A stretch of DNA of 45,261 bases from Pseudomonadales bacterium (lineage in GTDB: Bacteria; Pseudomonadota; Gammaproteobacteria; Pseudomonadales; Azotimanducaceae): assembly GCA_028280225.1 (NCBI GenBank), contig JANQMF010000035.1, positions 1 to 45,261 of the forward strand, written 5' to 3'. Both the position numbers and the translations under genes were made by a program. The stretch's first letter is position 1. Each line of letters opens with the position of its first letter. This document shows, in pieces, positions 1,178 through 42,292 of the stretch. The notes beneath the pieces are model-generated. The model did not search any database. It saw nothing but the letters and a program-made list of their open reading frames with translations, and was not told the DNA's origin.

Positions 1178-4100
1178 TCAGACCCGCAGTTCGCTGAGGC
1201 GGTTCGGTTTGGATATCTCGTAGCCCTGCGCAAAGTCGACCCCGATATCCTTCAGGCTTTTAAGAATCTCACCGTCTTCAACATATTCGGCAATGGTTTG
1301 TTTACCCATGTAGTGCCCAATCTCGTTGATCGAGCGCACCACGGCGAAGTCCGCCGGATTGTTGCTGATATCTTTAACAAATACGCCGTCAATTTTGACA
1401 AAGTCTACCGGTAAGTTGCGCAGGTAGGAGTAGGATGACAAACCCGTGCCAAAGTCATCTAACGAGAAGCTACAGCCGATAATCCGCATACGGTTCATAA
1501 AGTCGATGGCATTGTCCAGATTCGCAATAGCCGCTGTTTCGGTGATTTCAAAGGTCACCTTGGTGGTCGGGGCCTGAGTTTTGCCAAATTGCTCCAGGAC
1601 AAAGTCCGCAAAGGTGGCATCGTTAACCGAGTGTCCGGATACATTAATGGCAAAACCGCCAAAGTGATCCAGCATATTTCTGTTTTCAGCCATCCAGGAC
1701 AGCACGTTGCGGATAACCCAGCGGTCAACCGTGGTCATTCTATTGTAGGTTTCCGCTGCGTTTATCAGTTCGGTGGGGGCAACCACATCCCCCAGTTCGT
1801 CCTGCATGGACAGCAGAATTTCGTAGTGCACATCCTGATTGTTGATGTGCCCGCCATCCCCGTTGTTGATCGGCAGAATTTTTTGACAGTTAAGAATCAG
1901 GCGGTCGTCTTCCAAGGCTTTATCCAGCTGGGTCACCCACTCCATGGCACCGTGGCGCTTGATCATGCGCTTATCACCCAGCTCGTACTCCTGAACCCGG
2001 TTGCGGCCGGCATCCTTGGCGGAAAAGCAGGCCTCGTCCGCATGCTGCATCAGCGAATCGACACTGTCGGTGCTTTGGTCGATAAATACCAGACCCATGC
2101 TGGCGGTGAAGTTATAACTGCGGCCCTCCCACTCAAACCTGAGCTCCCGGATGGTGTTAAGGACCTGATCCGCGGTTTCTCTGGCTTCAATACTTTCAAT
2201 ATCTTCCAGCAACATGCCAAATTCATCCCCACCCAACCGGGCAATGGTCTGACTGTCTTTGGAAAATGTATCGGTCAGGCGTTCACCCACCACCCGCAGC
2301 AATTCGTCCCCGGCCCGGTGGCCGCTGGTGTTATTAACAATCTTAAACTGGTCCAGATCCACATAAAGTAAGGCATGCTGGCTGCCCACGGTTTTAGCAT
2401 GCCCCAGCGCCCGCTCGACACTGCGTTCAAACTCCCGGCGGTTGACCAGTTGGGTCAGGTCATCGTGGCTGGCCTGGAAGGCCAGCTGATTGTGCATGTT
2501 TTCCAACATACGCTGGGAGGCACGCTCCATCAACGGCAGATCGTAGTCGTCCAGCAGGGTGATATTACCCTCATACAGATCGTTGGTCATTTCTTTTAGG
2601 CTGCGCTCAAGAGTTTTGACCCCCTTGCGGTTAACCAGGACAAAAGAAGCGGCTTCGTCACCCACAAAGGCCACCGACAAAATCATTGGGCGCCCTTCCC
2701 GGTCGGACGCGGCTAACCACTCGCCAACCTGGATGCGCCGGGCACGCTCCACCGCCCGGTTCCAGCTGACCCTGACACTTTCATCCCCGCTTTCAATCTG
2801 CGGATCAACATCGGGTAACAAGCCGGTTAAGCCCATTACCTCTTCAACCTCACCGGCATTAACAGCCACCGTTGAAACCGGTGCCTTTTTGCCTGTGGTA
2901 TCGCCCACCAGGGCACTGGACATGCGCATGATCAGCGGGGTGCGTTTGCTGGGGTCAAAAGAAATACTGTTCAGCCCGTCCACCACCCTGCGCAACAGCT
3001 TTTCAGGTTCCACGTAGCCGCTGTGATCCGGGCCAATGCGGCCACTCAATTGACCTTGAAGCTGTTCAAGCACAGCCAGTTGATCCAGCCACTCGTGACT
3101 TTCCGGACCGTGTCTTAGATGGGTGTGGACCAGCAGGTTACGCCAACCCGGGTTCAAAAGCTCCAGCACCAGTTCCGGCACTTGTTGATCCGCAATCAAT
3201 TCACTGACTTCGCTGACGACCGCCCGCCGGGCCCGGGCCAGCTTCTGTTGACCTTCGCTGGCGCGAACCGTGCGTTCCACGTTGCCCCGGTAGGTACGGG
3301 ATTGACGATCAATCAGGGGGTGCAGTTCGTCAACCACTTCGGAGAATACTTCCGGGTTTGCATCGTAGTCCCTGACCACCCGCTGCAACAGTTCATCAAC
3401 CCGGCGGCCCACCTCCCGGTCGATGCCCACCCGTGTGTCCTTACCGTTACCCAGACGAGCCAACTGGTTCAACATCTGCACCGCGCTGTGCGGGTTTTCC
3501 GGATCGCTGGACAAAAAGCTGGGATCCTGGGCGGCCACCTTATTTAAGGTGACCTCTAATCTTTGCACCCACTCCCGTACCCCATCGGTGATCAGACGGT
3601 CATCCGCTAAGGATGTGACCAGGCCTTCCATCACATCCAGGGTATCAAAGTCCTCAACCGTTAACCCTTTGTCACCATGTTGGGCTTGCAGGACCTCAAT
3701 CAGTCGGGGCTTGAGGCGGATATCGGAAAGCGGTGCATCCCCCAGTTCATCCTGAATTTGCCCCAGGGCGTTGAGGATATCGCCGGGACGGTATATCTCG
3801 TCGGGCCGGGCGCCTTCCGGTGCCAGCCCTGCTGCCGGGGGTTTACCCATCAGTTCCCGGGTGCGCCGGTTCAAGTCCAGAATAGAACGTGCGGTCTGAT
3901 GTGCGGGTCCCCCGGCCGCTCCGGTGTGGGTAAAGGGGTTGGCATCTACCCGGCCGCCGGTAACACCGTCCGCAGCCATGGCCACTTCGCGCATGGCCTG
4001 ATCCATTTCCTGGTAGTCCTGCGGGGCCACCGCGTGACCTGCGCGATTGCGCACGGTGTAGCGCGGCTGAATGGATTCCCGCAGCTCTTCCAACGATGGA

Positions 4101-5218
4101 AATAAGCCGCTGTCTTCAAACAGCTTGGCCAGGGCCACATAAAGATTTTGCAGAACCTTGTGACACTCAACTTCAAACAGTAAAAATATTTCTTTGCGCA
4201 GTTCCGCACGCATGCCCAGTACTTTCTGTGCATCATCAAAGGCCCAATAGATGGCCGCCGGACCAATGGGAATAACGTCCTTATGCCCCCAGGGTTTTGC
4301 CAACATGCCCATTTGGGCGCGCATGTCCAGCAGATTGTCCTTAAAGCGGTTTTCTGCTTTTGATATCACCTCGGCAACCAGCAACCACTCTTCAAATTGT
4401 TCGGTGTCCACCAGCTCCAGCTTGTTGCTGTTGCCCGATTCTCTTTTACGCCGGCGTTCCAGCACCGCATCCAGGTCCGAGATCTTCTCAACCTGCTGCA
4501 CCACCCCCTGTACAAACAACTGCTGGAACTCCGCCTGATTTTTTTCCAAGCCGTCCAGGGCTTCAAAGTAACGGGTCTGGATGGCATTGGTGCCCGCATC
4601 CCTGGCCTTCACCAGAAGGTCTTCGTTAGCAGACTTAGTAAATGCGCCGGCCAGACGGGTTGAGGCACGTTGGGCAACCGTGCCCACTCTTTTTATAAGG
4701 CGGTCCGCAGCCTCCTGAGGCAGCTTGGCATCACGCAGGCTGGCGTTGCCCAGGGTGCTGGCACCCTTAATGGGGGTAACGCCGTCCGGACCCACCTTGG
4801 CCACATCCGCCAGGTCGTCCAGCTCCGGCTCCGGTAGTTCGTCCGGCACCGCGGTACCGGCGGCAACGGCAAAGTCGACCAGGGTTTTAAACGCCTGTTT
4901 GTCCAGGCCGTTGTCAAAACAAACACCCAGACCGTTGCCGCCATCCAGAATTCTGGCAATCTGCGCCTGGGTACGAAAGTGTTGCTGGCCTTCAGGGGTG
5001 GCCACGGAAAAGTGCAGTGCTACGGTATCACCGGATTTGGCATCAGCGCCGGTGGCCTCCAGCGAACGTGAGCCATTCCCGCCGGTGAGCAGCATACCCT
5101 CTTCACAGAAATCCCGGATGGCGCACAGCCAGGAGCGTCCCTGGGCCGGATGCACCAGAGCAGAGAGTTGTATGGGTTGCCTTTGATACTTTCGCCGATT
5201 CAAATTTGTGTCATCCAA
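1178..5218 (-). CDS. PilZ-DUF1631-GGDEF-EAL cyclic-di-GMP protein
   Basis: A 1346-residue soluble protein. The N-terminal ~115 residues look like PilZ (NRRKYQRQPIQLSALVHP), followed by a long helical DUF1631 region (about 140-870). A diguanylate cyclase domain has GGDEF at residues 996-1000, and an EAL phosphodiesterase domain fills the last ~230 residues. The EAL signature reads EIL, but other catalytic-type residues are visible: INVSG, FEITE, DDFGTG, VKIDG and AEYVED. The RxxD inhibitory site before GGDEF is lost (KDSQ in its place). An in-frame TAA immediately precedes the TTG at 5218, so this TTG is the earliest possible start; a second in-frame TTG lies 15 nt later. The likely role is control of surface-lifestyle behaviour through c-di-GMP. 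Whether synthesis or hydrolysis dominates cannot be read from sequence. Confidence 0.88.
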   Translation of the reverse strand: MDDTNLNRRKYQRQPIQLSALVHPAQGRSWLCAIRDFCEEGMLLTGGNGSRSLEATGADAKSGDTVALHFSVATPEGQQHFRTQAQIARILDGGNGLGVCFDNGLDKQAFKTLVDFAVAAGTAVPDELPEPELDDLADVAKVGPDGVTPIKGASTLGNASLRDAKLPQEAADRLIKRVGTVAQRASTRLAGAFTKSANEDLLVKARDAGTNAIQTRYFEALDGLEKNQAEFQQLFVQGVVQQVEKISDLDAVLERRRKRESGNSNKLELVDTEQFEEWLLVAEVISKAENRFKDNLLDMRAQMGMLAKPWGHKDVIPIGPAAIYWAFDDAQKVLGMRAELRKEIFLLFEVECHKVLQNLYVALAKLFEDSGLFPSLEELRESIQPRYTVRNRAGHAVAPQDYQEMDQAMREVAMAADGVTGGRVDANPFTHTGAAGGPAHQTARSILDLNRRTRELMGKPPAAGLAPEGARPDEIYRPGDILNALGQIQDELGDAPLSDIRLKPRLIEVLQAQHGDKGLTVEDFDTLDVMEGLVTSLADDRLITDGVREWVQRLEVTLNKVAAQDPSFLSSDPENPHSAVQMLNQLARLGNGKDTRVGIDREVGRRVDELLQRVVRDYDANPEVFSEVVDELHPLIDRQSRTYRGNVERTVRASEGQQKLARARRAVVSEVSELIADQQVPELVLELLNPGWRNLLVHTHLRHGPESHEWLDQLAVLEQLQGQLSGRIGPDHSGYVEPEKLLRRVVDGLNSISFDPSKRTPLIMRMSSALVGDTTGKKAPVSTVAVNAGEVEEVMGLTGLLPDVDPQIESGDESVRVSWNRAVERARRIQVGEWLAASDREGRPMILSVAFVGDEAASFVLVNRKGVKTLERSLKEMTNDLYEGNITLLDDYDLPLMERASQRMLENMHNQLAFQASHDDLTQLVNRREFERSVERALGHAKTVGSQHALLYVDLDQFKIVNNTSGHRAGDELLRVVGERLTDTFSKDSQTIARLGGDEFGMLLEDIESIEARETADQVLNTIRELRFEWEGRSYNFTASMGLVFIDQSTDSVDSLMQHADEACFSAKDAGRNRVQEYELGDKRMIKRHGAMEWVTQLDKALEDDRLILNCQKILPINNGDGGHINNQDVHYEILLSMQDELGDVVAPTELINAAETYNRMTTVDRWVIRNVLSWMAENRNMLDHFGGFAINVSGHSVNDATFADFVLEQFGKTQAPTTKVTFEITETAAIANLDNAIDFMNRMRIIGCSFSLDDFGTGLSSYSYLRNLPVDFVKIDGVFVKDISNNPADFAVVRSINEIGHYMGKQTIAEYVEDGEILKSLKDIGVDFAQGYEISKPNRLSELRV

Positions 5219-5438: not shown

Positions 5439-6506
5439 TCAGTCGGCGACAATCACCCGGTCGCGGCCCTGGGCCTTGGCCTGATACAGTGCCCGGTCGG
5501 CCCGTCCTAACAGTGCATCTACACTTTCTTCCGGCCGGTAGCTGGTCACCCCTACCGAAACACTCAGGCTCAACTCATCCCCGGCCTGGTCAACCTGGAT
5601 TTGTTTGGTCATTTTAGTCAGCCGGCGCAATACCGGATCCGCCGCCTGTTGCTCCACCCCCACCAGAACCAGCAAAAACTCTTCACCACCAATGCGCGCC
5701 ACAAAGTCGATATTGCGCACTGTGGCTGCTGCCATTTTGGCGAAGCGGCGCAGGACCATGTCACCGGTGGCATGGCCGTAGTGATCGTTGATTAACTTGA
5801 AGTGATCCAGGTCGCAGTAACACAAGGTGAAGGGTTGCTGGCCTCGATCAGCCAGGGATTTCTGCCGGGCCAGCACTTCCAGAATATAGCGGCGGTTGTG
5901 GACGCCGGTAAGTTCATCCTGTAACGCCAGGGTTTGCATACGTTCCATGACTTCGCGTAAACGCAAATTACGGATGTTCAGCAGTTCCCGCACCCGCAGC
6001 ACTTCCCAGGCGATAAAGAGTCCACCCAGCAGGATCAGGGCAAAGGCGATATTGTAGAGCAGTTCCAGATTGGAACTGACCACATTGAGTCCCAACTCCA
6101 TGCCAATTAACGTGTAGCCCAGCCAGGTTAGTAAGGCCAGCAACGCGACCTGGCTGCGCGATAAATGCAGAGCGCTGTAAAACAGGCCAAACAACGGCAC
6201 AACAAGCAGCAGCAGCCGGATAGGGTGAGGTACCAACAGGGCCAGGGCAATTGCACCAAAATTGCACCACAGGGAGCGGGCCCAGATCATCAGCTTATCG
6301 TCCCAGCGCTGCATAAACCCCGGCCGAATCACCAGCACCGCCAGACCCAGGGTCCAACTGCCCAGCAAGAAGTAGTAAGCCTGTGCCGCGGCGGCAACAA
6401 AACCCTGCTGGGCCAGGGCCCATAAGAAAAAGCCATAAGCTGCCGTCCCGCATAGCACCGCCAGCGGGCGTAGTTGGCTCGGTATTTGTTCAGCTTGACT
6501 GTTCAC
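5439..6506 (-). CDS. membrane-bound diguanylate cyclase (GGDEF)
   Basis: A 355-residue protein with about six hydrophobic segments in residues 12-170, a short coiled linker and a C-terminal GGDEF domain. The active-site motif is GGEEF at 273-277, a functional variant. The inhibitory I-site RxxD is intact at R264-D267 (RNID), so product inhibition is expected, unlike in the neighbouring 1346-residue protein. DELTGVHNRR marks the domain start. It would make c-di-GMP from two GTP at the inner membrane. The start codon is GTG with no strong ribosome binding site. About 220 bp without a recognisable feature separate it from the preceding c-di-GMP gene. Confidence 0.88.
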   Translation of the reverse strand: MNSQAEQIPSQLRPLAVLCGTAAYGFFLWALAQQGFVAAAAQAYYFLLGSWTLGLAVLVIRPGFMQRWDDKLMIWARSLWCNFGAIALALLVPHPIRLLLLVVPLFGLFYSALHLSRSQVALLALLTWLGYTLIGMELGLNVVSSNLELLYNIAFALILLGGLFIAWEVLRVRELLNIRNLRLREVMERMQTLALQDELTGVHNRRYILEVLARQKSLADRGQQPFTLCYCDLDHFKLINDHYGHATGDMVLRRFAKMAAATVRNIDFVARIGGEEFLLVLVGVEQQAADPVLRRLTKMTKQIQVDQAGDELSLSVSVGVTSYRPEESVDALLGRADRALYQAKAQGRDRVIVAD

Positions 6507-24875: not shown

Positions 24876-26171
24876 TCAGGACAACGCCGGCAGCATCAGG
24901 GTCAGAGCAGCCCCGCCCAGGGGACCGGCACCAATCTCCAGGCGGCCCTGATACAAACTGACCAGTTCTTTAACCACCGCCAGGCCAATCCCCTGACCGG
25001 ACTGAATTTCATCCAGACGCCGGCCCCGATCCAGAACATCCCCGCGCTGGGCGGCGGGGATACCCGGGCCGTTGTCCGCCACACAAACGCAGACAAATTC
25101 CCGGGTCTCTATGGTTCTGGCAAAGCTTGAGATGTGCACCTCGGACCGGGTGTATTTAAAGGCGTTCTCCAGCAGGTTTCCCAACATTTCCATAAAGTCC
25201 CGCTCGTCACCCTTGGCGGCCAGATCTGGAACCAGGTTTTCTATAACCTTGATGTTCCGGTCCGCATAAGCAATTTCTAAAGCGCGGAGCAAGCGCCGGA
25301 CAAGGACATCGATAACCACCGCCTTACCCACTACCACCGGACCCGTGGCTGATGCCTTGGATAGCTGATGGGTCACCGTGGTTTCCATGCGTTGCAGTTG
25401 TTCCTGCAGCAGAGCTTTATCCGGCACATCATTCAACAGCGCATTACGTATCACCGCCAGCGGGGTTTTCAGACTGTGGGCCAGGTCCTCCAATGCGTTG
25501 CGGTAACGGCTGCGGCGGCTTTGTTCGTGGGCCACAAAACGATCCAGATTATTGGCCAGCCCCTTTAACTCATTGGGGTATGCACTGCTCAAACGCTCCC
25601 GCTCGCCGGCTTCCAGTTCCCGAACTTCCCCGGCCATGGAGCGCAGGGGTAATAATCCCCAGCGCAGGGCGGCCAGTTGTGCAAGGATAAAAAAGGCCGT
25701 GGCGGCCCCCAGACCCAAACCCAGGTTACGGCGGAATTCGTTAATCGACGCCAGGTAAGGTGCCTGATCGGTGGCCGTGCTGAAGACCACCTGCTCGGTA
25801 TCCACACCTTCCCAGATCACCGTATAACTTAAGTGGAATCGCGGCGTGGGCTCCGCGGTCTGGACAAAGACAAAGGAGCCCGGCTGGTAGTCAATTTCCG
25901 GGAAGTTCACCGCCGTGGTGACCGCTGATGCGGACAGCCAAAGCTGCTCCCCCAGATCGCTGGTGACCCGGGCGTACAACCCGGAATCGGGCTGACTGAG
26001 CCGGGGTTCAAACAGGGTTTCGTTAAAGGTGAGCCGGCCACCCTGTTCACCCACCGTACCCATCAATGAATAAATAACTAAACGCAGTTGTTGTTCCGCA
26101 CCGGTGACCACACTGCCGGTAAAAGCACGGTCCAATACCCAACCCGTGCCGGTGAGAAACAAGGCCAGCAC
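24876..26171 (-). CDS. sensor histidine kinase, PhoQ/QseC-like (start uncertain)
   Basis: 431 residues from the GTG at 26171. Membrane segments lie at the extreme N-terminus and at ~153-173, around a ~130-residue periplasmic sensor domain. The H-box is EDLAHSLKTPLAV with His232. The N-box region is LLENAFKYT, followed by DNGPGIP and GQGIGLAVVKE. The GTG cuts the first membrane helix short: the frame continues upstream with a natural helix start (SNSIQNRLLFTSTFV) but has no ATG, GTG or TTG until a stop. The partner response regulator lies ~107 bp upstream. A -1 shift at the TTTT run near 26213-26216 may have hidden the true start. Confidence 0.9.
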   Translation of the reverse strand: MLALFLTGTGWVLDRAFTGSVVTGAEQQLRLVIYSLMGTVGEQGGRLTFNETLFEPRLSQPDSGLYARVTSDLGEQLWLSASAVTTAVNFPEIDYQPGSFVFVQTAEPTPRFHLSYTVIWEGVDTEQVVFSTATDQAPYLASINEFRRNLGLGLGAATAFFILAQLAALRWGLLPLRSMAGEVRELEAGERERLSSAYPNELKGLANNLDRFVAHEQSRRSRYRNALEDLAHSLKTPLAVIRNALLNDVPDKALLQEQLQRMETTVTHQLSKASATGPVVVGKAVVIDVLVRRLLRALEIAYADRNIKVIENLVPDLAAKGDERDFMEMLGNLLENAFKYTRSEVHISSFARTIETREFVCVCVADNGPGIPAAQRGDVLDRGRRLDEIQSGQGIGLAVVKELVSLYQGRLEIGAGPLGGAALTLMLPALS

Positions 26172-26277
26172 AAAGGTGCTGGTGAACAGCAGCCGATTCT
26201 GGATGGAGTTGGAAAAGCGCTCAGCAACCGTGGCCCTGCTCCCTAAATAACTTTGGTTATGTAATTTCCTGGCTTAA

Positions 26278-26946
26278 CTATCCCGCTTCCGTGACAAAGC
26301 GATAACCCTGGCCCCTTACGGTGCGGATGAAGTCTACCGGGGTAATTTTCTTACGCAGTCGCCCGACAAAAACTTCAATAACATTGCTGTCCCGGTCAAA
26401 GTCCTGTTCGTATAGATGATCCGTCAGTTCACTTTTCGACACTACCCTGTCCGGGTTGAGCATCAAGTACTCCAGGACCTTATATTCATACGCAGTCAGT
26501 TCAATGGCGGCACCCTCAACACGCACCTCTTTTTTGGCGGTATCCAACTGCAGGGTACCCTGACTCAAAACCGGTGAGGCATAACCGGCTGAACGGCGAA
26601 TAACCGCGTTTAAGCGGGCCATCAGTTCTTCCATCTGAAAGGGTTTGGCCAGGTAATCATCTGCGCCCGCTTCCAGCCCCTCAACTTTGTCCTGCCAGTG
26701 ACCCCGCGCGGTCAGCACAAGAATGGGAAAACCCTGCTGTTCATCCCGCAGGCGTTTGATCATTTCGATGCCGTCGATCTTAGGCAGCCCCAGATCCACA
26801 ACGGCAGCGTCATATTCGTATTCGCGCCCGTAGTACAGACCCTCTTCACCATCAACAGCCGCGTCTACGGCAAAACCTTCACCCTTAAGCTGGGCCACCA
26901 ACTGCTCACGCAGATTGTGCTCATCTTCTACAACCAAAATACGCAT
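26278..26946 (-). CDS. OmpR/PhoP-family response regulator
   Basis: 222 residues. The receiver domain has the acidic pocket VVEDE, phospho-acceptor Asp51 (VVDLGLPKIDG), Thr79 and Lys101 (YLAKPF). The C-terminal winged helix contains LTAYEYKVLEYL, SKSELTDHLYEQDFDRDSNVIEVFVGRLRKK and VRGQGYRF. The start ATG at 26946 was chosen because AGGAGGAG lies upstream. It is a DNA-binding activator/repressor paired with the adjacent kinase and probably senses cations or an envelope signal, by similarity to PhoPQ/QseBC. A direct-repeat operator upstream of the glycine-zipper gene may be its own target. Confidence 0.94.
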   Translation of the reverse strand: MRILVVEDEHNLREQLVAQLKGEGFAVDAAVDGEEGLYYGREYEYDAAVVDLGLPKIDGIEMIKRLRDEQQGFPILVLTARGHWQDKVEGLEAGADDYLAKPFQMEELMARLNAVIRRSAGYASPVLSQGTLQLDTAKKEVRVEGAAIELTAYEYKVLEYLMLNPDRVVSKSELTDHLYEQDFDRDSNVIEVFVGRLRKKITPVDFIRTVRGQGYRFVTEAG

Positions 26947-27113
26947 GTTCTGTCTCCTCCTTTGCATCGATCACAAACTCTCCCCAGGCGCCCGAGGGTA
27001 CGGTTTCTGCTTATCAGCAGGAGATCAAACCAGGGATAATCGATGTTGGACACTGATGTTGGGGCACCAGGGTTGCCGGTCCGGCCCAAGTACAACCCTT
27101 GGACACACAATTC

Positions 27114-36413: not shown

Positions 36414-36695
36414 TTATTGGGCGCTGGCCACTCCAGGCGCCTGCTCCGGCGCGTGAATGACCCCCTGAGCATCGACCAGGTAGTAACCACGCTGATGCAT
36501 ACAGGCAAAAAACGGGCCCTGGGTATCCGTACCCAAAGCCTTTCCCCGGTCCATAACGTCTTGTTGGCATTCGGTTTTATCAAAGGCAAACAAATATTCG
36601 CCACCCTGCGGGTGGTACCAGGAAAACGTAGGCGTATTTGACGTACATCCAGCAATCGATAGAACAGCAAATACGAGAGAAATACCTAATTTCAT
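36414..36695 (-). CDS. small lipoprotein, paralogue of the divergent gene
   Basis: 93 residues from the ATG at 36695. The signal peptide MKLGISLVFAVLSIAGC has Cys17 as the lipidation site. The mature part has one Cys in DKTECQQDV and one in FFACMHQRGYYLV. The pattern C-Q ... DT ... F-x(2,4)-C-M-x2-RGY is shared with the divergent 85-residue lipoprotein. No ribosome binding site is visible. The -10 hexamer of a predicted Pho-box promoter ends 6 nt before the ATG, which would make the transcript leaderless. Function unknown. Confidence 0.78.
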   Translation of the reverse strand: MKLGISLVFAVLSIAGCTSNTPTFSWYHPQGGEYLFAFDKTECQQDVMDRGKALGTDTQGPFFACMHQRGYYLVDAQGVIHAPEQAPGVASAQ

Positions 36696-36717
36696 GTTGC
36701 CATTGTCACGCCGGTTT

Positions 36718-36735
36718 ATGACGTGTTTATGACAG
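36718..36735 (-). promoter_or_regulatory. predicted Pho box for the 93-aa lipoprotein
   Basis: The minus strand reads CTGTCATAAACACGTCAT: one perfect heptamer CTGTCAT, a 4-bp spacer AAAC and a second heptamer with 5 of 7 matches. A further half site ATGTCAT lies upstream (36739-36745). GACAAT follows 10 bp downstream as a -10 element. This is the architecture of PhoB-activated promoters. Confidence 0.6.
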
Positions 36736-36895
36736 AAAATGACATAATTCCGCATTATTTGAAAAAAGTGGTGGGGATTTCGTAAAAATCGGCCGAAAAA
36801 CGGCTGTTTAGCACCCGGTTGTAACAATTCGGGCCACAATTTTCGCTATATTTACCACCAGCAATCGATAAACATCACAGTGACGAGGAGAGTTT

Positions 36896-37153
36896 ATGCT
36901 TAAGTATCTCGCAATCGCTATGACAGCCATACTAATTGCCGGCTGCCAAACCAATGTGGCAGAACCCACCCATCGATGGGCTTCTACCAACGACGCTGAC
37001 CGGGCTCAGTATCAACACGACCATGCCAAGTGCCAAAGCCAGGCTGATATCTCAACAAGCCGCGCGGCTTTAGACACTGACAGTGAAGGCTTTTCAGTCT
37101 ACAAACAGTGCATGAACAGCCGCGGCTATGTATTAACCGCTTATAACAACTAG
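36896..37153 (+). CDS. small lipoprotein, paralogue of the divergent gene
   Basis: 85 residues. The signal peptide MLKYLAIAMTAILIAGC has Cys17 lipidated. The mature part carries HAKCQSQAD and YKQCMNSRGYVLTAY, with the same two-cysteine C-Q ... DT/DS ... F ... C-M-x2-RGY layout as the divergent 93-residue lipoprotein. The two cysteines could form a disulfide in the envelope. GAGGAG precedes the ATG, unlike its paralogue. No Pho box is seen on its side of the shared intergenic region. Function unknown. Confidence 0.85.
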   Translation: MLKYLAIAMTAILIAGCQTNVAEPTHRWASTNDADRAQYQHDHAKCQSQADISTSRAALDTDSEGFSVYKQCMNSRGYVLTAYNN

Positions 37154-37176
37154 CGGTCCATAAAACAGACCGCTAG
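37150..37176. terminator. hairpin after the 85-aa lipoprotein
   Basis: CTAGCGGTC and GACCGCTAG form a perfect 9-bp stem around a 9-base A-rich loop, beginning within the stop codon region of the lipoprotein gene. No T-tract follows, so an intrinsic terminator is only possible. Confidence 0.35.
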
Positions 37177-37195
37177 CTGAACCATTTGGCTTGAG

Positions 37196-37221
37196 AGCTG
37201 GCCAACCTGAGTTGGTCAGCT
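37196..37221. terminator. hairpin at the convergent ends of lipoprotein and TonB receptor
   Basis: AGCTGGCCAAC and GTTGGTCAGCT pair over 11 bp with one wobble around the loop CTGA. It lies 7 bp beyond the receptor stop codon. It lacks a clear T-tract but could act bidirectionally or stabilise 3' ends. Confidence 0.4.
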
Positions 37222-37227
37222 TCCCAA

Positions 37228-40002
37228 TCAAAGTTGCCACTTCAAGTCAATTGAAAACGTCGACCCCACGTTCTGCTCAATCACCGTAACCCGGCCTGCA
37301 GAGCCGTCCTGTTCAATTTCCAGTTCGTCATCTAACAGGTTTTGTGCCTTTACCTTAACCGTCAGGTTCTCGGTAGGATACCAACTGTAGACAAAGTCCA
37401 GGGAATGGAACGGCTGTTCAAAAGCGTCATCGTTGCCATCCACACCGGCGAAAAAGATCCGTTCGCCAAAGGCATTGTAGACCAGGGTGGCTGCGTGTTT
37501 CGCATCCGGCGAATCCCAGCCGATCTGCAGGTTAGCTACCCATTCGGAATGCTGGGTTAAGCGGCGGCTGTCATTAGTAATGGACGCCGCTCCGGGCACC
37601 GCCCGGTCCAGTTCCAGGTCCGAGTCGCTGAAGGTGGCATTACCCGCAAGATAGAAGCCTTCCAAGGCTGAAGACAAACTACCCAGCCCTTTCAGCCATT
37701 CTATTTCTGCACCGTAGATTTCCCCGGACTCACCGTTCACAAAGCTGAACAGAATGTTGTCTTCACTGGCACCACCCTGAACAGTTTCAATGGGGTTATC
37801 GATATCCTTCAGGAACAATGATACAGAGAAGCTGTCGCCACTGTCCCACAGCCATTCCGCACGCACGTCATAGTTGGTGACATCAGAAGACTGTAAGGTC
37901 GAACGGCCTTGTACCCGGGCCTCGGTGAGCGGGTCGATAAAGATGGACTCTGTCACTTCGCGGATGTCCGGGCGGGCAACGGTTTCGCTCCAGGCAAAGC
38001 GCAGCTGGAACTCATCCGACCAGAATCCCGGCTGAATGTAGGTTACCGCCAAAGACGGATAATACTCATCGTCCGCGATAACGCCGTCAGCAATCTCCTG
38101 CGGAGTTGCGGCAACCCGGGGCTGGCCAAAGGTCAGAATATCCAGCGGCACCGAAACTTGCACAAAGTCTTCGTAGCGGACCCCGGCGGCGATGCGCCAG
38201 GTTTCGTTAAGCAGCAGGTCGAACTTAGCCCAACTGGCGTCGTTGATCTGCGCAGCAGCATAACTTTCTTCACCAAACTGGCCAATATTCAAGGCAACTT
38301 GAAGACCCGTGGACGAATCCAGGATGTTGGCGTCACTGAATACCTCACTGGGGGTCCCCGAAGATACCGTGTTGAAGCCCGCATCCGTGCTGCCCAGACC
38401 GAAGGTGATCTGCTCAAAAAAGCGGGTTTTGCGCACATAGTCGTAGCCCGCGGCAAGCTCCAGATCCCAACCGTTACCATAGATGGGATAGGTAGCCGAA
38501 AAGCCATTACTTTCCACCTCATCTTCAAGTTCCGCAAAGGTATAACGGCCGGCGGTGAGCGTGGAGCGGATACGCGTATTTAAAATCGCACCCGTTGCCG
38601 GATCCAGGCTGTCCAGAGATTCCATACGCACTTCGTTGGGAATGTCCGTATCTGCTTGAGAATCCGACCAATACCAGGTGTATTCAAGATCCCGCAGCGG
38701 TGCCAGCCAACTGAAGCTGTCACCCAGGATATCCAGGGTGGCGTCGCCCAGGGTATGGCTGCCCGAAATCTGGTTCACTTCCAGCTCCCGCTGTTCGAAG
38801 CGCAACTCGTTGATACGGCCCTGAGCCGGGGAGGTAGGGTCTGCACAGTCATTAAACTGGCCCTGGCCACAGGTCCGGGATACCGAGGCTTCGTCTTCGG
38901 TATTGCGGATGAACATGGAATTGGTGCCAATTTCATGATCTTCGGTAAAGCGCACCCCAAGGCTTAAGGATCCGGTTAGCGACGTTGAGCGCACGGTACG
39001 CTGTGTTTCGGAAAAATCCGAATCCGGCAGGTTAATCCGCCGGTTCACCCGCTCCCGGTTACGCCAGTTATCATCATAGGCGCCCAGGGCCAGGAAACCG
39101 ACTTCCCAGTTTTCCCCCAAAAACCAACGGTAACCGCCGGTGGCTTCCAGGCCAATGTCTGCCGGCAGATCCTTGTCCCGCACATCGATGTTGCGGTTCA
39201 GCTCTGTCGCTAATTGGCGGTTAACGGCTTCAGCCTCTTCAATGGTGTGAAAGCCGCCGTCCTGGCGCAGAACCTCCAGAATATTGCCCGGTGAAAAACT
39301 ACCCCGGTAGGTGCTGATGGCCGTCTGTAAGGCATCCGGCAACTCCCGGGTGCCATCATCGTCACCAAATTTATCATCGTCACCGCCACTATAGGTGAAG
39401 GCATCGTCGCTGTGGTTGGTATTCCAGCCGGATTTGATTTTCAAACCCAGCACGATATCTTCCGGCACCCGCTTGGTACGGATGTTCACGTTGCCGCCGC
39501 CAAAGGCCGCCGGCAGTTCCGGCGAGTAGCCTTTGCTGACCGTCAGAGCGTCTACAATGTCCGCCGGAAAGATATCCAGGGGCAAAACGTTTCGCGTCAG
39601 GTCCGGTGAAGGCACCGCCGCAGAGTTCAATTGGGTGCTGGAGTAGCGTTCACCCAGGCCGCGAACATATACAAATTTCCCTTGGGCCAGGGTCAGGCCG
39701 GGCACCCGGCGCAGGGCCGCGGCAACATCACCGTCACCGACCCGGCCAATGGCCTCAGCGTCCAGCATGTCTACCGGTACACTGGCATCCATGCGCTCGG
39801 ATACAATATCCGTAGCGGCCGCTTTGTACCGGCCAATGACCACCACCTCTTCGATGGTGGCATTGTCAGCGGCGACCACCGGCTGCTCGGGAGCAGTCCC
39901 GGCCTCGTCCGCCTCCTGGGCTTGCGTTGCCGCGGCCAGGCTCAGGACGAGCAAGGCACCGGCAAACTTACGAGTTAGCATTGTCATTATCTTAATTTCC
40001 AT
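37228..40002 (-). CDS. TonB-dependent outer-membrane receptor, predicted Pho-regulated
   Basis: 924 residues. A signal peptide (FAGALLVLSLAAATQAQ) is followed by a TonB-box-like EEVVVIGR near residue 52 and a plug domain (VPGLTLAQGKFVYVRGLGERYSSTQLN ... FGGGNVNIRTKR). A 22-stranded barrel ends in the aromatic-rich STFSIDLKWQL. It transports a substrate across the outer membrane with TonB energy. It is the second gene of an operon with the beta-helix-like lipoprotein (39-bp gap), whose promoter carries a strong Pho box. I infer a phosphate or organophosphorus-related ligand rather than iron, but the ligand cannot be read from sequence. Confidence 0.93.
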   Translation of the reverse strand: MEIKIMTMLTRKFAGALLVLSLAAATQAQEADEAGTAPEQPVVAADNATIEEVVVIGRYKAAATDIVSERMDASVPVDMLDAEAIGRVGDGDVAAALRRVPGLTLAQGKFVYVRGLGERYSSTQLNSAAVPSPDLTRNVLPLDIFPADIVDALTVSKGYSPELPAAFGGGNVNIRTKRVPEDIVLGLKIKSGWNTNHSDDAFTYSGGDDDKFGDDDGTRELPDALQTAISTYRGSFSPGNILEVLRQDGGFHTIEEAEAVNRQLATELNRNIDVRDKDLPADIGLEATGGYRWFLGENWEVGFLALGAYDDNWRNRERVNRRINLPDSDFSETQRTVRSTSLTGSLSLGVRFTEDHEIGTNSMFIRNTEDEASVSRTCGQGQFNDCADPTSPAQGRINELRFEQRELEVNQISGSHTLGDATLDILGDSFSWLAPLRDLEYTWYWSDSQADTDIPNEVRMESLDSLDPATGAILNTRIRSTLTAGRYTFAELEDEVESNGFSATYPIYGNGWDLELAAGYDYVRKTRFFEQITFGLGSTDAGFNTVSSGTPSEVFSDANILDSSTGLQVALNIGQFGEESYAAAQINDASWAKFDLLLNETWRIAAGVRYEDFVQVSVPLDILTFGQPRVAATPQEIADGVIADDEYYPSLAVTYIQPGFWSDEFQLRFAWSETVARPDIREVTESIFIDPLTEARVQGRSTLQSSDVTNYDVRAEWLWDSGDSFSVSLFLKDIDNPIETVQGGASEDNILFSFVNGESGEIYGAEIEWLKGLGSLSSALEGFYLAGNATFSDSDLELDRAVPGAASITNDSRRLTQHSEWVANLQIGWDSPDAKHAATLVYNAFGERIFFAGVDGNDDAFEQPFHSLDFVYSWYPTENLTVKVKAQNLLDDELEIEQDGSAGRVTVIEQNVGSTFSIDLKWQL

Positions 40003-40041
40003 AGCTGTTACGGGTGGTTAACTAAGTCCCCCGAGCCCGCG

Positions 40042-41652
40042 CTAAGGAATAAAGTAAACAGTGCTGTCGAAGCCGAAGGTCCAACCGCCGGCGGTCCAAT
40101 CGTCTACATCACCGTCACCATCAGGGCCCACTGCACCCAGGAATTCATCGCTGGTGTCGCCGTCACCATCGGTATCCGCCAGGGTGATAGTGATCGGGTT
40201 AACCCCATCCGTGGGTGCTGCAAGGGTTTGATAACCGTTAGTTTCAAAAATGACCGCTGCCGCCGTATCCGTGACCACAGCGTTACCCACATTATTGGGA
40301 TACGAAACTGATCCGGTGTCGGTCACCCACTGCAGCACGGTGTCACCATTGGGAAAGGTGGCCGGGTCTTGAGTTTTGGTGGGTTCCGCGCCAGCCAGCA
40401 GGGTACCGGCAATCACCGAATCACCGTCACCCGCCAATTGACCGGTGGAGTCATCGTTCACTTCCAGCAGCTCGTTACCGGTCTGGGAAAGTTCGTTTAA
40501 ACCATGACCGTCATACAGAACGGAATTTAAGATAGTGGCCTGAGTACCACGACGCAGCACAATACCTTCAGAGTCACCATGGGTGCCGCCGTCAAAGTTC
40601 GAAGGAATGCAGGTCAGGTTGATCAGGGTGGGGTTGGTGGTGGGGGTCAGACCCAGATTGTCACCGTCACCGTCACCTTCCACACAGCGGTTGGCGTCGG
40701 TGGGGTTGTGAATAACCAGCGCCGGGCCAACGGTGCCGATATAGCCGTCGGTCCAGTCGATGGAGTCGTCCCGGACATACATCGCCAACAGATTTTCAAC
40801 GTTGACCGCACCACCGAAGAATTCCACACCGTCATCAAAGGTGCTGTACACCTGAATGTTGCGCACGATGGTACCGGAACCCACAGCGTTGAAGGTGATG
40901 CCGTTCAGCTCGTCACCCGGAGCCGCTTCGAAACCGGTGTGTTTAACCACAACGTATTCCAGGTGGCCGGAGCTTTCGTCGTTTACCGCACCGCCAAAGT
41001 TGGATGGCTTACCTTCGGATAACTCGTGACAGTTGTTGTTGGTACGGGCTGCGTCATCACATTGCGAGGTAATGCCGTTGCCGTTAATCACCACACCACC
41101 CCACAGGGAAACGTCAAACTGTCCGGCGGTGCCACTGACCGCATCCGCAAAACCGGTGATGGTAATGGGCCGGGTAGGTGAACCAACAGCCATGATTTGA
41201 GAACCGCGATTGACCAGCAGATAGTCGTCATCCGCAAACGCCAGGGTGGCGCCGGCTTCGATGGTCAATACCGCACCTGTGCCGCCTGCTGGCGCCTCAC
41301 CGGAATCCACATTGACACCCACCTGCAGCACATCGTTAAAGATATGCGCGCCGGTGATAAACGGAACGGTCAGATTAACTTCTAAAGGGTTGTCAGCACC
41401 CACAAAGGCAGAGTCGTAGGTACAGTTGGTACCGTCAAAAGAACCTTGCTGTACGGTGTTAGACGCCGGATCGGTATAGTTGGCGCAAGGGTTATTGCTG
41501 CCGCCACCGCCGTTTGTCACGCTATTGTCATTTGTTGTGGAATTGTCATTCGCGTTAATTTCAACGTCGCTGCCGCCGCCCCCGCAACCGACAAGTACAA
41601 AAATGCTTACCGCTGCAAAAAAGCCAAAACGCATGTCTTTAAAGCACCTCAT
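40042..41652 (-). CDS. surface lipoprotein with beta-helix-like repeats, partner of the TonB receptor
   Basis: 536 residues from the ATG at 41652 (a TTG at 41670 and an ATG at 41634 are alternatives; the last has GAGGTG 10 nt upstream). The lipobox is VLVGC followed by GGGGSDVE, then an Asn/Thr/Ser-rich linker. The body has a repetitive right-handed-helix-like pattern (GVVINGNGI, GHLEYVVVKHTGF, GTIVRNIQVYSTFDDGVEFFGG, VNVENLLAMYVRDDSIDW) with Asp-rich GDGDGDN and DTDGDGDTSDE segments that could bind Ca2+. It probably sits on the cell surface and captures or processes the receptor's ligand. The family is not recognised by name. Confidence 0.8.
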   Translation of the reverse strand: MRCFKDMRFGFFAAVSIFVLVGCGGGGSDVEINANDNSTTNDNSVTNGGGGSNNPCANYTDPASNTVQQGSFDGTNCTYDSAFVGADNPLEVNLTVPFITGAHIFNDVLQVGVNVDSGEAPAGGTGAVLTIEAGATLAFADDDYLLVNRGSQIMAVGSPTRPITITGFADAVSGTAGQFDVSLWGGVVINGNGITSQCDDAARTNNNCHELSEGKPSNFGGAVNDESSGHLEYVVVKHTGFEAAPGDELNGITFNAVGSGTIVRNIQVYSTFDDGVEFFGGAVNVENLLAMYVRDDSIDWTDGYIGTVGPALVIHNPTDANRCVEGDGDGDNLGLTPTTNPTLINLTCIPSNFDGGTHGDSEGIVLRRGTQATILNSVLYDGHGLNELSQTGNELLEVNDDSTGQLAGDGDSVIAGTLLAGAEPTKTQDPATFPNGDTVLQWVTDTGSVSYPNNVGNAVVTDTAAAVIFETNGYQTLAAPTDGVNPITITLADTDGDGDTSDEFLGAVGPDGDGDVDDWTAGGWTFGFDSTVYFIP

Positions 41653-41729
41653 GGTCCTGAATACCCCCAATTGTTAATAGAGTGATCTGTATCACTGTTT
41701 GTGAATTGCGCGCATCTTAGGGAGGGCTC

Positions 41730-41747
41730 GTGACAATAATGTGACAG
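41730..41747 (-). promoter_or_regulatory. Pho box of the beta-helix lipoprotein/TonB-receptor operon
   Basis: The minus strand reads CTGTCACATTATTGTCAC: heptamers CTGTCAC and TTGTCAC separated by ATTA, matching the PhoB consensus CTGTCAT-N4-CTGTCAY at all but one or two positions. Ten bases downstream lies TAAGAT as a -10 hexamer, with no separate -35. The box is about 80-95 bp upstream of the lipoprotein start. Confidence 0.78.
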
Positions 41748-41886
41748 GTTTAGTTTTCTTGATATTGCCCAACGCCCTTCCCCACCCCACAAGCCTTTGA
41801 CGACTAACTTTTTTTCTTCGTGCAGCGCGCTGTCCAAAACGCGTAAAAACCCTAAAAAACCCCGCAAAAACACTACAAATTTAGCT

Positions 41887-41904
41887 TTGTCACAGAACTG
41901 TAAA
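41887..41904 (+). promoter_or_regulatory. weak Pho-box-like site facing the 114-aa gene
   Basis: TTGTCAC, spacer AGAA and CTGTAAA repeat on the 11-bp period of a Pho box on the plus strand. The second heptamer matches at 5 of 7. The downstream -10 (TACGGT, 10 bp later) is poor. Suggestive only because a strong Pho box lies in the same intergenic region. Confidence 0.28.
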
Positions 41905-41947
41905 AAACACGCGTTACGGTAATCTTTTAAATTCTATCTGGTCCATC

Positions 41948-42292
41948 ATGGGGTACCGGAGACTGCTGAAAGACTACATCTCACACGTGGAAGCCATTGT
42001 CGGGGTAGACTTGATCGACATTGCTGCGCTGACTAATGCCTTGAATAAAAGGGATATTGGCGAACTGCGCACCGTGACTGCCGAGCTCAAGCGTGAGTCT
42101 TTTATGCATGGGCTGAGCACAGACCACAATCACACCATCAAACGGCTGCTGGATGAGGGTAAGCTGACCTATCCGGATCTTAAACACCTGACGGGGATTG
42201 AACCGGCTTCGGACCCTGATGACGAACTGACCGATGAACGCCTGGAGCGGATGATTGAGGTTATTTTGTCAGCTCAAGACAACAATAAATAA
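41948..42292 (+). CDS. hypothetical 114-aa helical protein
   Basis: A soluble, largely helical, acidic protein with no signal peptide and no motif I recognise. Features are LLKDYISHVEAIVGVDLIDI, an internal KLTYPDLKHLTGIEP and the acidic tail DPDDELTDERLERMIEVIL. Coding potential is supported by a clean frame with balanced codon use and by a convergent neighbour starting 9 bp after its stop. No clear ribosome binding site precedes the ATG. It shares its upstream region with the Pho-box operon. Confidence 0.6.
   Translation: MGYRRLLKDYISHVEAIVGVDLIDIAALTNALNKRDIGELRTVTAELKRESFMHGLSTDHNHTIKRLLDEGKLTYPDLKHLTGIEPASDPDDELTDERLERMIEVILSAQDNNK

Follow-up and report, generated by a model that had tools for sequence, protein, structure and literature searches.

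The closest described relatives of the locus considered here come from two sources. In Caulobacter crescentus, ElpS (CC_0170) is a phosphate-starvation-induced surface lipoprotein of ~50 kDa whose gene lies beside a receptor gene (CC_0171) and gsp genes (PMC2996285). Overexpression of elpS was reported to raise secreted phosphatase activity; ElpS itself, refolded or immunoprecipitated, is described as having no alkaline phosphatase activity, and ElpS was still produced when cc0171 was deleted (PMC2996285). The Caulobacter PhoB regulon is reported to include TonB-dependent receptors and the type II secretion system (T2SS) (PMC11208175). In Flavobacterium johnsoniae, the lipoproteins FI, FII, and FIII are strongly induced by phosphate (Pi) starvation and have modest similarity to ElpS. 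FI and FII are clustered with TonB transporters (PUSIII, PUSIV) that are also induced, and FII lies with phoBR (PMC8115612). Here we describe a lipoprotein (P0001) and a TonB-dependent receptor (P0002) encoded on one strand of a 45,261-nucleotide stretch of a Pseudomonadales bacterium of the Azotimanducaceae (JANQMF010000035.1, assembly GCA_028280225.1; hereafter the window, designated C95 among the contigs of its 4.44-Mb genome). The pair is preceded by a sequence resembling the binding box of PhoB, and we consider control by the phosphate (Pho) regulon very likely.

P0001 shares 40% identity over 286 aa (E 2e-48) with the lipoprotein encoded in L222, a T2SS-linked Hyphomonadaceae locus, and 35% identity over 338 aa with a homologue from Flavivirga whose locus also contains a receptor. 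These two matches place the window pair in the known ElpS and FI/FII kind, the first by way of L222 and the published description of CC_0170, the second by way of the Flavivirga homologue. As at the elpS locus, a lipobox lipoprotein is encoded next to a TonB-dependent receptor, and the relatives L182, L210, and L222 keep the published lipoprotein-receptor-gsp order (lipoprotein-receptor-gspC-gspD in L182 and L210). Unlike the ElpS pair, the window pair does not lie beside T2SS genes (none were found among the window proteins searched, and contig C221 carries the sole GspC match in this genome), its receptor gene follows a lipoprotein gene that has a box, in contrast to the reportedly constitutive cc0171, and the window has extra small genes. 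L222, with its Caulobacter-like order, has no box above threshold (6.3). The window pair shares with FI and FII the combination of a related lipoprotein with a TonB-dependent partner, but these belong to another phylum and the Flavivirga locus is without a box above threshold (8.3). In outline, a TonB channel with a surface lipoprotein also recalls PusCD/SusCD, but P0001 has no SusD-type domain and P0002 no PF13715. A further point of comparison is the TonB2 system of Vibrio vulnificus with TtpB (DUF3450), described as iron-responsive and as having a potential Fur site (PMC6957404). DUF3450 and ExbB-type genes likewise adjoin the pair in relatives such as those from Alteromonas, Salinimonas, and Colwelliaceae, but seven of the 10 DUF3450 genes scored are Pho-boxed, and in the window genome DUF3450 is not adjacent to the pair.

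PhoB binds direct heptamers with an 11-bp period that take the place of the -35 element. This promoter layout is found upstream of P0001: two TGTCA repeats stand with an 11-bp period in place of the -35 element, with a -10-like hexamer ~10 bp downstream (Table 1). The original prediction had reported the site CTGTCACATTATTGTCAC with TAAGAT 10 bp downstream before the lipoprotein and receptor genes, and a second site, CTGTCATAAACACGTCAT, before a small lipoprotein (P0003) on the same strand; both are present and correctly placed. Scored with a position-weight matrix, as that prediction had proposed, they reach 18.1 and 16.1, and the CTGTCACATTATTGTCAC box exceeds all 284 control promoters. A TGTCA repeat followed by 10 nt and a -10-like hexamer is also present in L033 and L036, among seven upstream regions inspected. 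An extra TGTCAT half-site stands 10 bp upstream of the CTGTCATAAACACGTCAT box, which has counterparts at a similar position in L033 (23.4), L056 (20.1), L034 (15.8), and L057 (11.5). The original prediction had overlooked a third promoter-type site, TTGTCACAGAACTGTAAA, at 41887-41904 (+).

Table 1. Features of the lipoprotein/receptor locus, with positions in the window.
Feature	Coordinates	Strand	Remarks
Small lipoprotein P0003, 93 aa	36414..36695	-	FSWYHPQGGEYLF and CM.QRGY motifs
-10-like GACAAT	36702..36707	-	Begins 10 nt downstream of the CTGTCATAAACACGTCAT box
PhoB-like box CTGTCATAAACACGTCAT	36718..36735	-	Upstream of P0003; read directly; score 16.1
Small lipoprotein P0004	36896..37153	+	Divergent; P0003 paralogue; box score 5.2; membership of the Pho unit not supported
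TonB-dependent receptor P0002, 924 aa	37228..40002	-	39 nt downstream of P0001
Lipoprotein P0001, beta-helix-type, ElpS kind	40042..41652	-	536 aa from ATG at 41652; 530 aa from ATG at 41634
-10-like TAAGAT	41714..41719	-	10-nt spacer after the CTGTCACATTATTGTCAC box; read directly
PhoB-like box CTGTCACATTATTGTCAC	41730..41747	-	Upstream of lipoprotein and receptor genes; read directly; matrix score 18.1
PhoB-like box TTGTCACAGAACTGTAAA	41887..41904	+	Faces divergent P0005; score 14.5
P0005, 114 aa, uncharacterised	41948..42292	+	Divergent from the lipoprotein gene; MGYRxLLK...ELR...RE

The matrix was built from 15 sites of phoBR/pst loci in the window genome and its relatives, preselected with a consensus. 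In the 21 training loci, 21 sites passed the threshold where shuffled sequences gave 4.2, and some few of the 15 sites used may therefore be spurious. Over the 90,488 positions scanned in the window, four score at least 14 (18.1, 17.3, 16.1, 14.5) against a Markov-2 expectation of 0.43, and three of these stand upstream of genes. The 17.3-scoring site (41514-41531, +) lies inside the lipoprotein gene, in the codons of an Asn/Asp/Ser-rich stretch, and we judged it fortuitous rather than a promoter. Genome-wide, the pattern TGTCAYN5TGTCAY has 56 matches with at most one mismatch, compared with 25 for the reversed pattern. Four matches are exact. One is the CTGTCACATTATTGTCAC box, a second is upstream of phoR-pstS on contig C129 (where there is a one-mismatch site too), a third (C147:322) precedes an ORF, and the remaining one is inside the window lipoprotein gene. 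The genome encodes PhoB at G000:C198:7021-7695 (302 bits against a cut-off of 296.2). The window has a response regulator of its own (26281-26967), which we rejected as PhoB: its phmmer match to PhoB is 127 bits, PhoP is its best match (244 bits), and it fails the PhoB cut-off. It belongs to a two-component pair at 24876-26967 (-), a histidine kinase with a regulator closest to PhoP and under the PhoP cut-off. Elsewhere in the genome, a GDPD-family phosphodiesterase gene (G000:C109, locus L135, 5738-7009, -) has a Pho-box-like site scoring 15.4.

Relatives of the lipoprotein occur in 40 of 117 genomes, the window genome included, and 36 of their loci were taken as a first set. A second set of 80 further loci comprised the best 80 of 572 relatives from a scan of genome contigs. 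Within the first set, the 95th percentile of the 284 controls is exceeded by 21/37 lipoprotein upstream regions (Mann-Whitney p 3e-12). The same percentile is passed by 8/11 upstream regions of the divergent P0005 family and by 6/8 in the small-lipoprotein match list, paralogues included. Only six of 33 receptor upstream regions pass, belonging to five receptor-first loci and L060. In the second set, 22/70 first genes pass (p 8e-21) and 1/71 second genes, with controls contaminated by boxed phoB/pstS neighbours. We therefore rely on a pooled test, in which both sets were merged, made non-redundant, and Pho/Pst-like neighbours dropped from the 528 controls. Here the control 95th percentile, which 5% would be expected to exceed, is passed by 69/95 first genes, that of the window among them, and by 11/98 second genes; 100 column-permuted matrices gave a mean of 8.35 and a maximum of 19 first genes. 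Homologous receptor/lipoprotein pairs thus carry Pho boxes, a point the original prediction had singled out for checking. Where the receptor comes first, it is boxed in six of 10 loci. Fur-like sites (at least 14 of 19 matches) are found at 0/95 first genes and 1/528 controls, and the best Fur match upstream in the window has only 10 of 19.

Neighbouring genes were counted in 109 non-redundant related loci, after removal of seven duplicates, and the counts are per fetched stretch, not for direct contact. A receptor relative is present in 97 of the 109, some of the remainder being cut by contig ends (33/36 and 71/80 in the two sets with duplicate genomes included), and the pairing extends across gamma- and alphaproteobacterial loci to one flavobacterium. 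PhoB, counted at 200 bits or more since a looser count would include other OmpR-type regulators, is found in 17/109 loci, PhoR, Pst, PhoU, or PiT genes in 16/109, and PhoB or any of these in 22/109. The NCBIfam PhoB cut-off is passed by eight of the 10 regulators checked; the window regulator and that of L043 fail. OmpR/PhoB-type regulators are also the commonest of the 139 nearest neighbours scanned (of 182), with 12 cases (seven in loci with PhoB of at least 200 bits), followed by DUF3450 (7) and GspC (6). The gene orders can be explicit: pstSCAB-phoU-lipoprotein-receptor in L167, and phoB-phoR-pstS-lipoprotein-receptor-DUF3450-ExbB-ExbB in L204 and L198. The T2SS genes gspC/gspD occur in 15/109 loci (by family and phmmer searches) and DUF3450 or ExbB in 15/109. 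The original prediction had remarked that no enzyme or pst gene is nearby. This holds for the window, where pst genes or matching enzymes were absent from the 20 proteins and one regulator searched, but not for the orthologous loci, in which phosphate genes do occur.

The DUF3450 module deserves separate mention. Boxes of at least 15 precede seven of the 10 DUF3450 genes scored. In L198, L199, L203, L204, L205, L224, and L229, the DUF3450 gene, with ExbB-type genes, comes after the receptor and has its own Pho box. We found no report of a phosphate-linked DUF3450 module in the open-access literature searched. The window genome has a DUF3450/ExbB-type operon on the same contig as phoB, at a distance of ~1.4 kb from it (G000:C198:7012-9844). 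A calcineurin-type phosphoesterase and a group-1 glycosyltransferase are paired near the loci L048, L052, and L056 (by Pfam in L052 and L056, by eye in L048); we take the two genes to resemble the plcP-agt lipid-remodelling genes.

P0001 has the lipobox LVGC and no Pfam or NCBIfam family (Pfam E<=0.01). Its structure model is confident (pLDDT 85, pTM 0.87), and the best 50 of 190 Foldseek matches are mostly beta-helix enzymes and tailspikes. None of the 190 reaches E<=0.001 (best 2.5e-3) and TM-scores are low; sequence searches against solved structures also gave nothing useful. Judged from the model, P0001 is likely of the beta-helix class, with no close solved relative. Homologues have one to six profile matches of the domain each, some perhaps split; lipoproteins of ~1,300-1,400 aa with three or more beta-helix domain matches are encoded in L056, L057, L058, L199, L207, L209, L226, and L241. 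The Asp-rich loops, which the original prediction put forward as the site of ligand capture, are unlikely to be so, since DxDGD-type loops occur in only nine of 38 homologues, two or more of them in three only. The conserved acidic residues lie elsewhere. D267, D268, E271, D289, D290, D293, E319, and D321 (numbered from the ATG at 41634) are invariant in 38/38, and they include two DDxx[ED] sets spaced 22 residues apart that may form an acidic patch on stacked coils. P0002 matches PF00593 (E 2.1e-19) and PF07715 (E 1e-7), its sole Pfam families at E<=0.01, with PF13715 absent, and it matches TIGR01782 below the cut-off of that family.

The conservation of the boxes, the lack of Fur enrichment, the phosphate genes of relatives, and the likeness to published Pi-starvation-induced lipoproteins (PMC2996285, PMC8115612) together make Pho control of the pair very likely and its kind a known one. 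The view that the locus is Pho-regulated and serves phosphorus rather than iron is thus strongly supported. We think it probable that the receptor and lipoprotein form a PhoB-activated surface system for import of a phosphorus ligand. Under phosphate limitation, PhoB would bind the direct-repeat box in place of the -35 element and RNA polymerase would transcribe the lipoprotein and receptor genes together. The lipobox cysteine would anchor the beta-helix-type lipoprotein, whose exposure on the surface is suggested by the analogy to ElpS. There it would cooperate with the receptor, which would use TonB energy to import a phosphorus-containing ligand; candidates are orthophosphate, a phosphoester, a phosphorylated polymer, or a metal-phosphate complex. 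The lipoprotein may capture, cleave, or activate. P0003 and P0005 would be accessories switched on by the same PhoB signal.

Several observations weigh against this reading. In Caulobacter, cc0171 was reported as constitutive and a change in intracellular phosphate as not detected (PMC2996285). A box above threshold is lacking in 26/95 pairs, including four Microbulbifer loci and seven of 15 T2SS-linked loci, L222 among them. In receptor-first loci the lipoprotein, as second gene, is also boxed in five of 10, and L060 has boxes at both lipoprotein and receptor. The box is thus not a simple marker of the first gene, and these two-box loci weaken the rule, which we had entertained, that the box follows the first gene. 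No recurrence of phosphatases or phosphodiesterases beside the pair was seen in the family tables of neighbours inspected. Finally, the DUF3450 operon of the window genome is unboxed (score 5.7), and we therefore do not count it as part of the system.

The lipoprotein could instead be an enzyme, a hydrolase or lyase of beta-helix type that acts at the surface on some polymer, phosphorylated or otherwise, while the receptor takes in the fragments. Many of the best 50 of the 190 Foldseek matches are polysaccharide-active beta-helix proteins, the eight invariant acidic residues with their two DDxx[ED] sets would suit such a role, and the Flavobacterium relatives were modelled on polygalacturonase (PMC8115612). 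We regard this as rather unlikely given that ElpS was reported to lack alkaline phosphatase activity of its own (PMC2996285) and that no solved structure was matched at E<=0.001. A lipoprotein that serves mainly to activate or scaffold extracellular phosphatases, with the receptor as a sensor or bystander, is improbable, despite the raised secreted phosphatase activity on elpS overexpression and the constitutive cc0171 (PMC2996285). The two genes stay paired across proteobacterial loci and in the flavobacterium, a Pho-boxed DUF3450/ExbB module adjoins them in some relatives, and deletion of cc0171 did not stop ElpS production.

P0002 has generic TonB-receptor domains only, and the described TonB2 system of the DUF3450 protein TtpB is one for iron (PMC6957404). 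Both points would fit a receptor of the usual iron or siderophore type whose Pho-like motif arose by chance. The near absence of Fur-like sites at first genes and controls alike, the conservation of the Pho box, and the phosphate genes in related loci make this very improbable. It is just as hard to credit that the boxes are bound by some other OmpR-family regulator that recognises TGTCA repeats. Related regulators do exist, such as the PhoP-like one of the window, and binding by PhoB is a prediction from the sequence, but the matrix derives from sites of phoBR/pst loci, and PhoB lies near the pair in 17 of the related loci. Import of a phosphorus ligand under PhoB control remains the reading that we prefer.

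The small proteins around the pair fared unequally as members of the Pho island envisaged by the original prediction. P0003 is boxed, and its homologues come after the receptor in L033, L034, L056, and L057; P0004, which P0003 retrieves and is retrieved by in phmmer/jackhmmer searches, has no significant box upstream (5.2), and its place in the island is not supported. No Pfam family was found for P0003. In all five sequences inspected (the window, L033, L034, L056, L057), the hexamer stands 10 nt from the box and the ATG follows 6-8 nt on. In the window, the ATG lies 6 nt after GACAAT, which places the predicted start of transcription on the ATG or directly beside it, so that the P0003 transcript would be near-leaderless. 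The small-lipoprotein promoters of L033, L034, L056, L057, and the window (36695-36735) all have the predicted start at or beside the ATG, suggesting near-leaderless mRNA in each. In 16/16 sources found, ~14 of them distinct, the gene of the P0005 family and that of the lipoprotein point away from each other. The P0005-family gene lies beside phoB on the same strand in L051, L052, and L068, and is convergent with phoB in L048; these four are same-genus genomes. P0005 has no Pfam family, its structure model (pLDDT 55) was too poor and was discarded, and by eye the family often has an HTH-like C-terminal stretch. Apart from these, the window encodes a 1346-aa protein at 1178-5218 (-), in which DUF1631 is fused to GGDEF and EAL, with an adjoining GGDEF protein at 5439-6506.

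With the window pair, a poorly understood system for scavenging phosphorus, of which ElpS of Caulobacter was the first example, has a local counterpart. The conserved boxes, the occurrence of phoB/pst genes close to the pairs of relatives, and the Pho-boxed TonB-type module lead us to predict that some bacteria use TonB energy for outer-membrane phosphorus import. More tentatively, and as a possibility only, the pairs may represent a widespread route of TonB-energised import across the outer membrane that is dedicated to phosphate and differs from SusCD. It would consist of an ElpS-type beta-helix surface lipoprotein of one to several domains and a receptor, to which some lineages would add a TonB2-type energy module under Pho control and a small protein linked to phoB. 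By importing a phosphorus ligand through the outer membrane, it would form the front end of Pst/PiT uptake.

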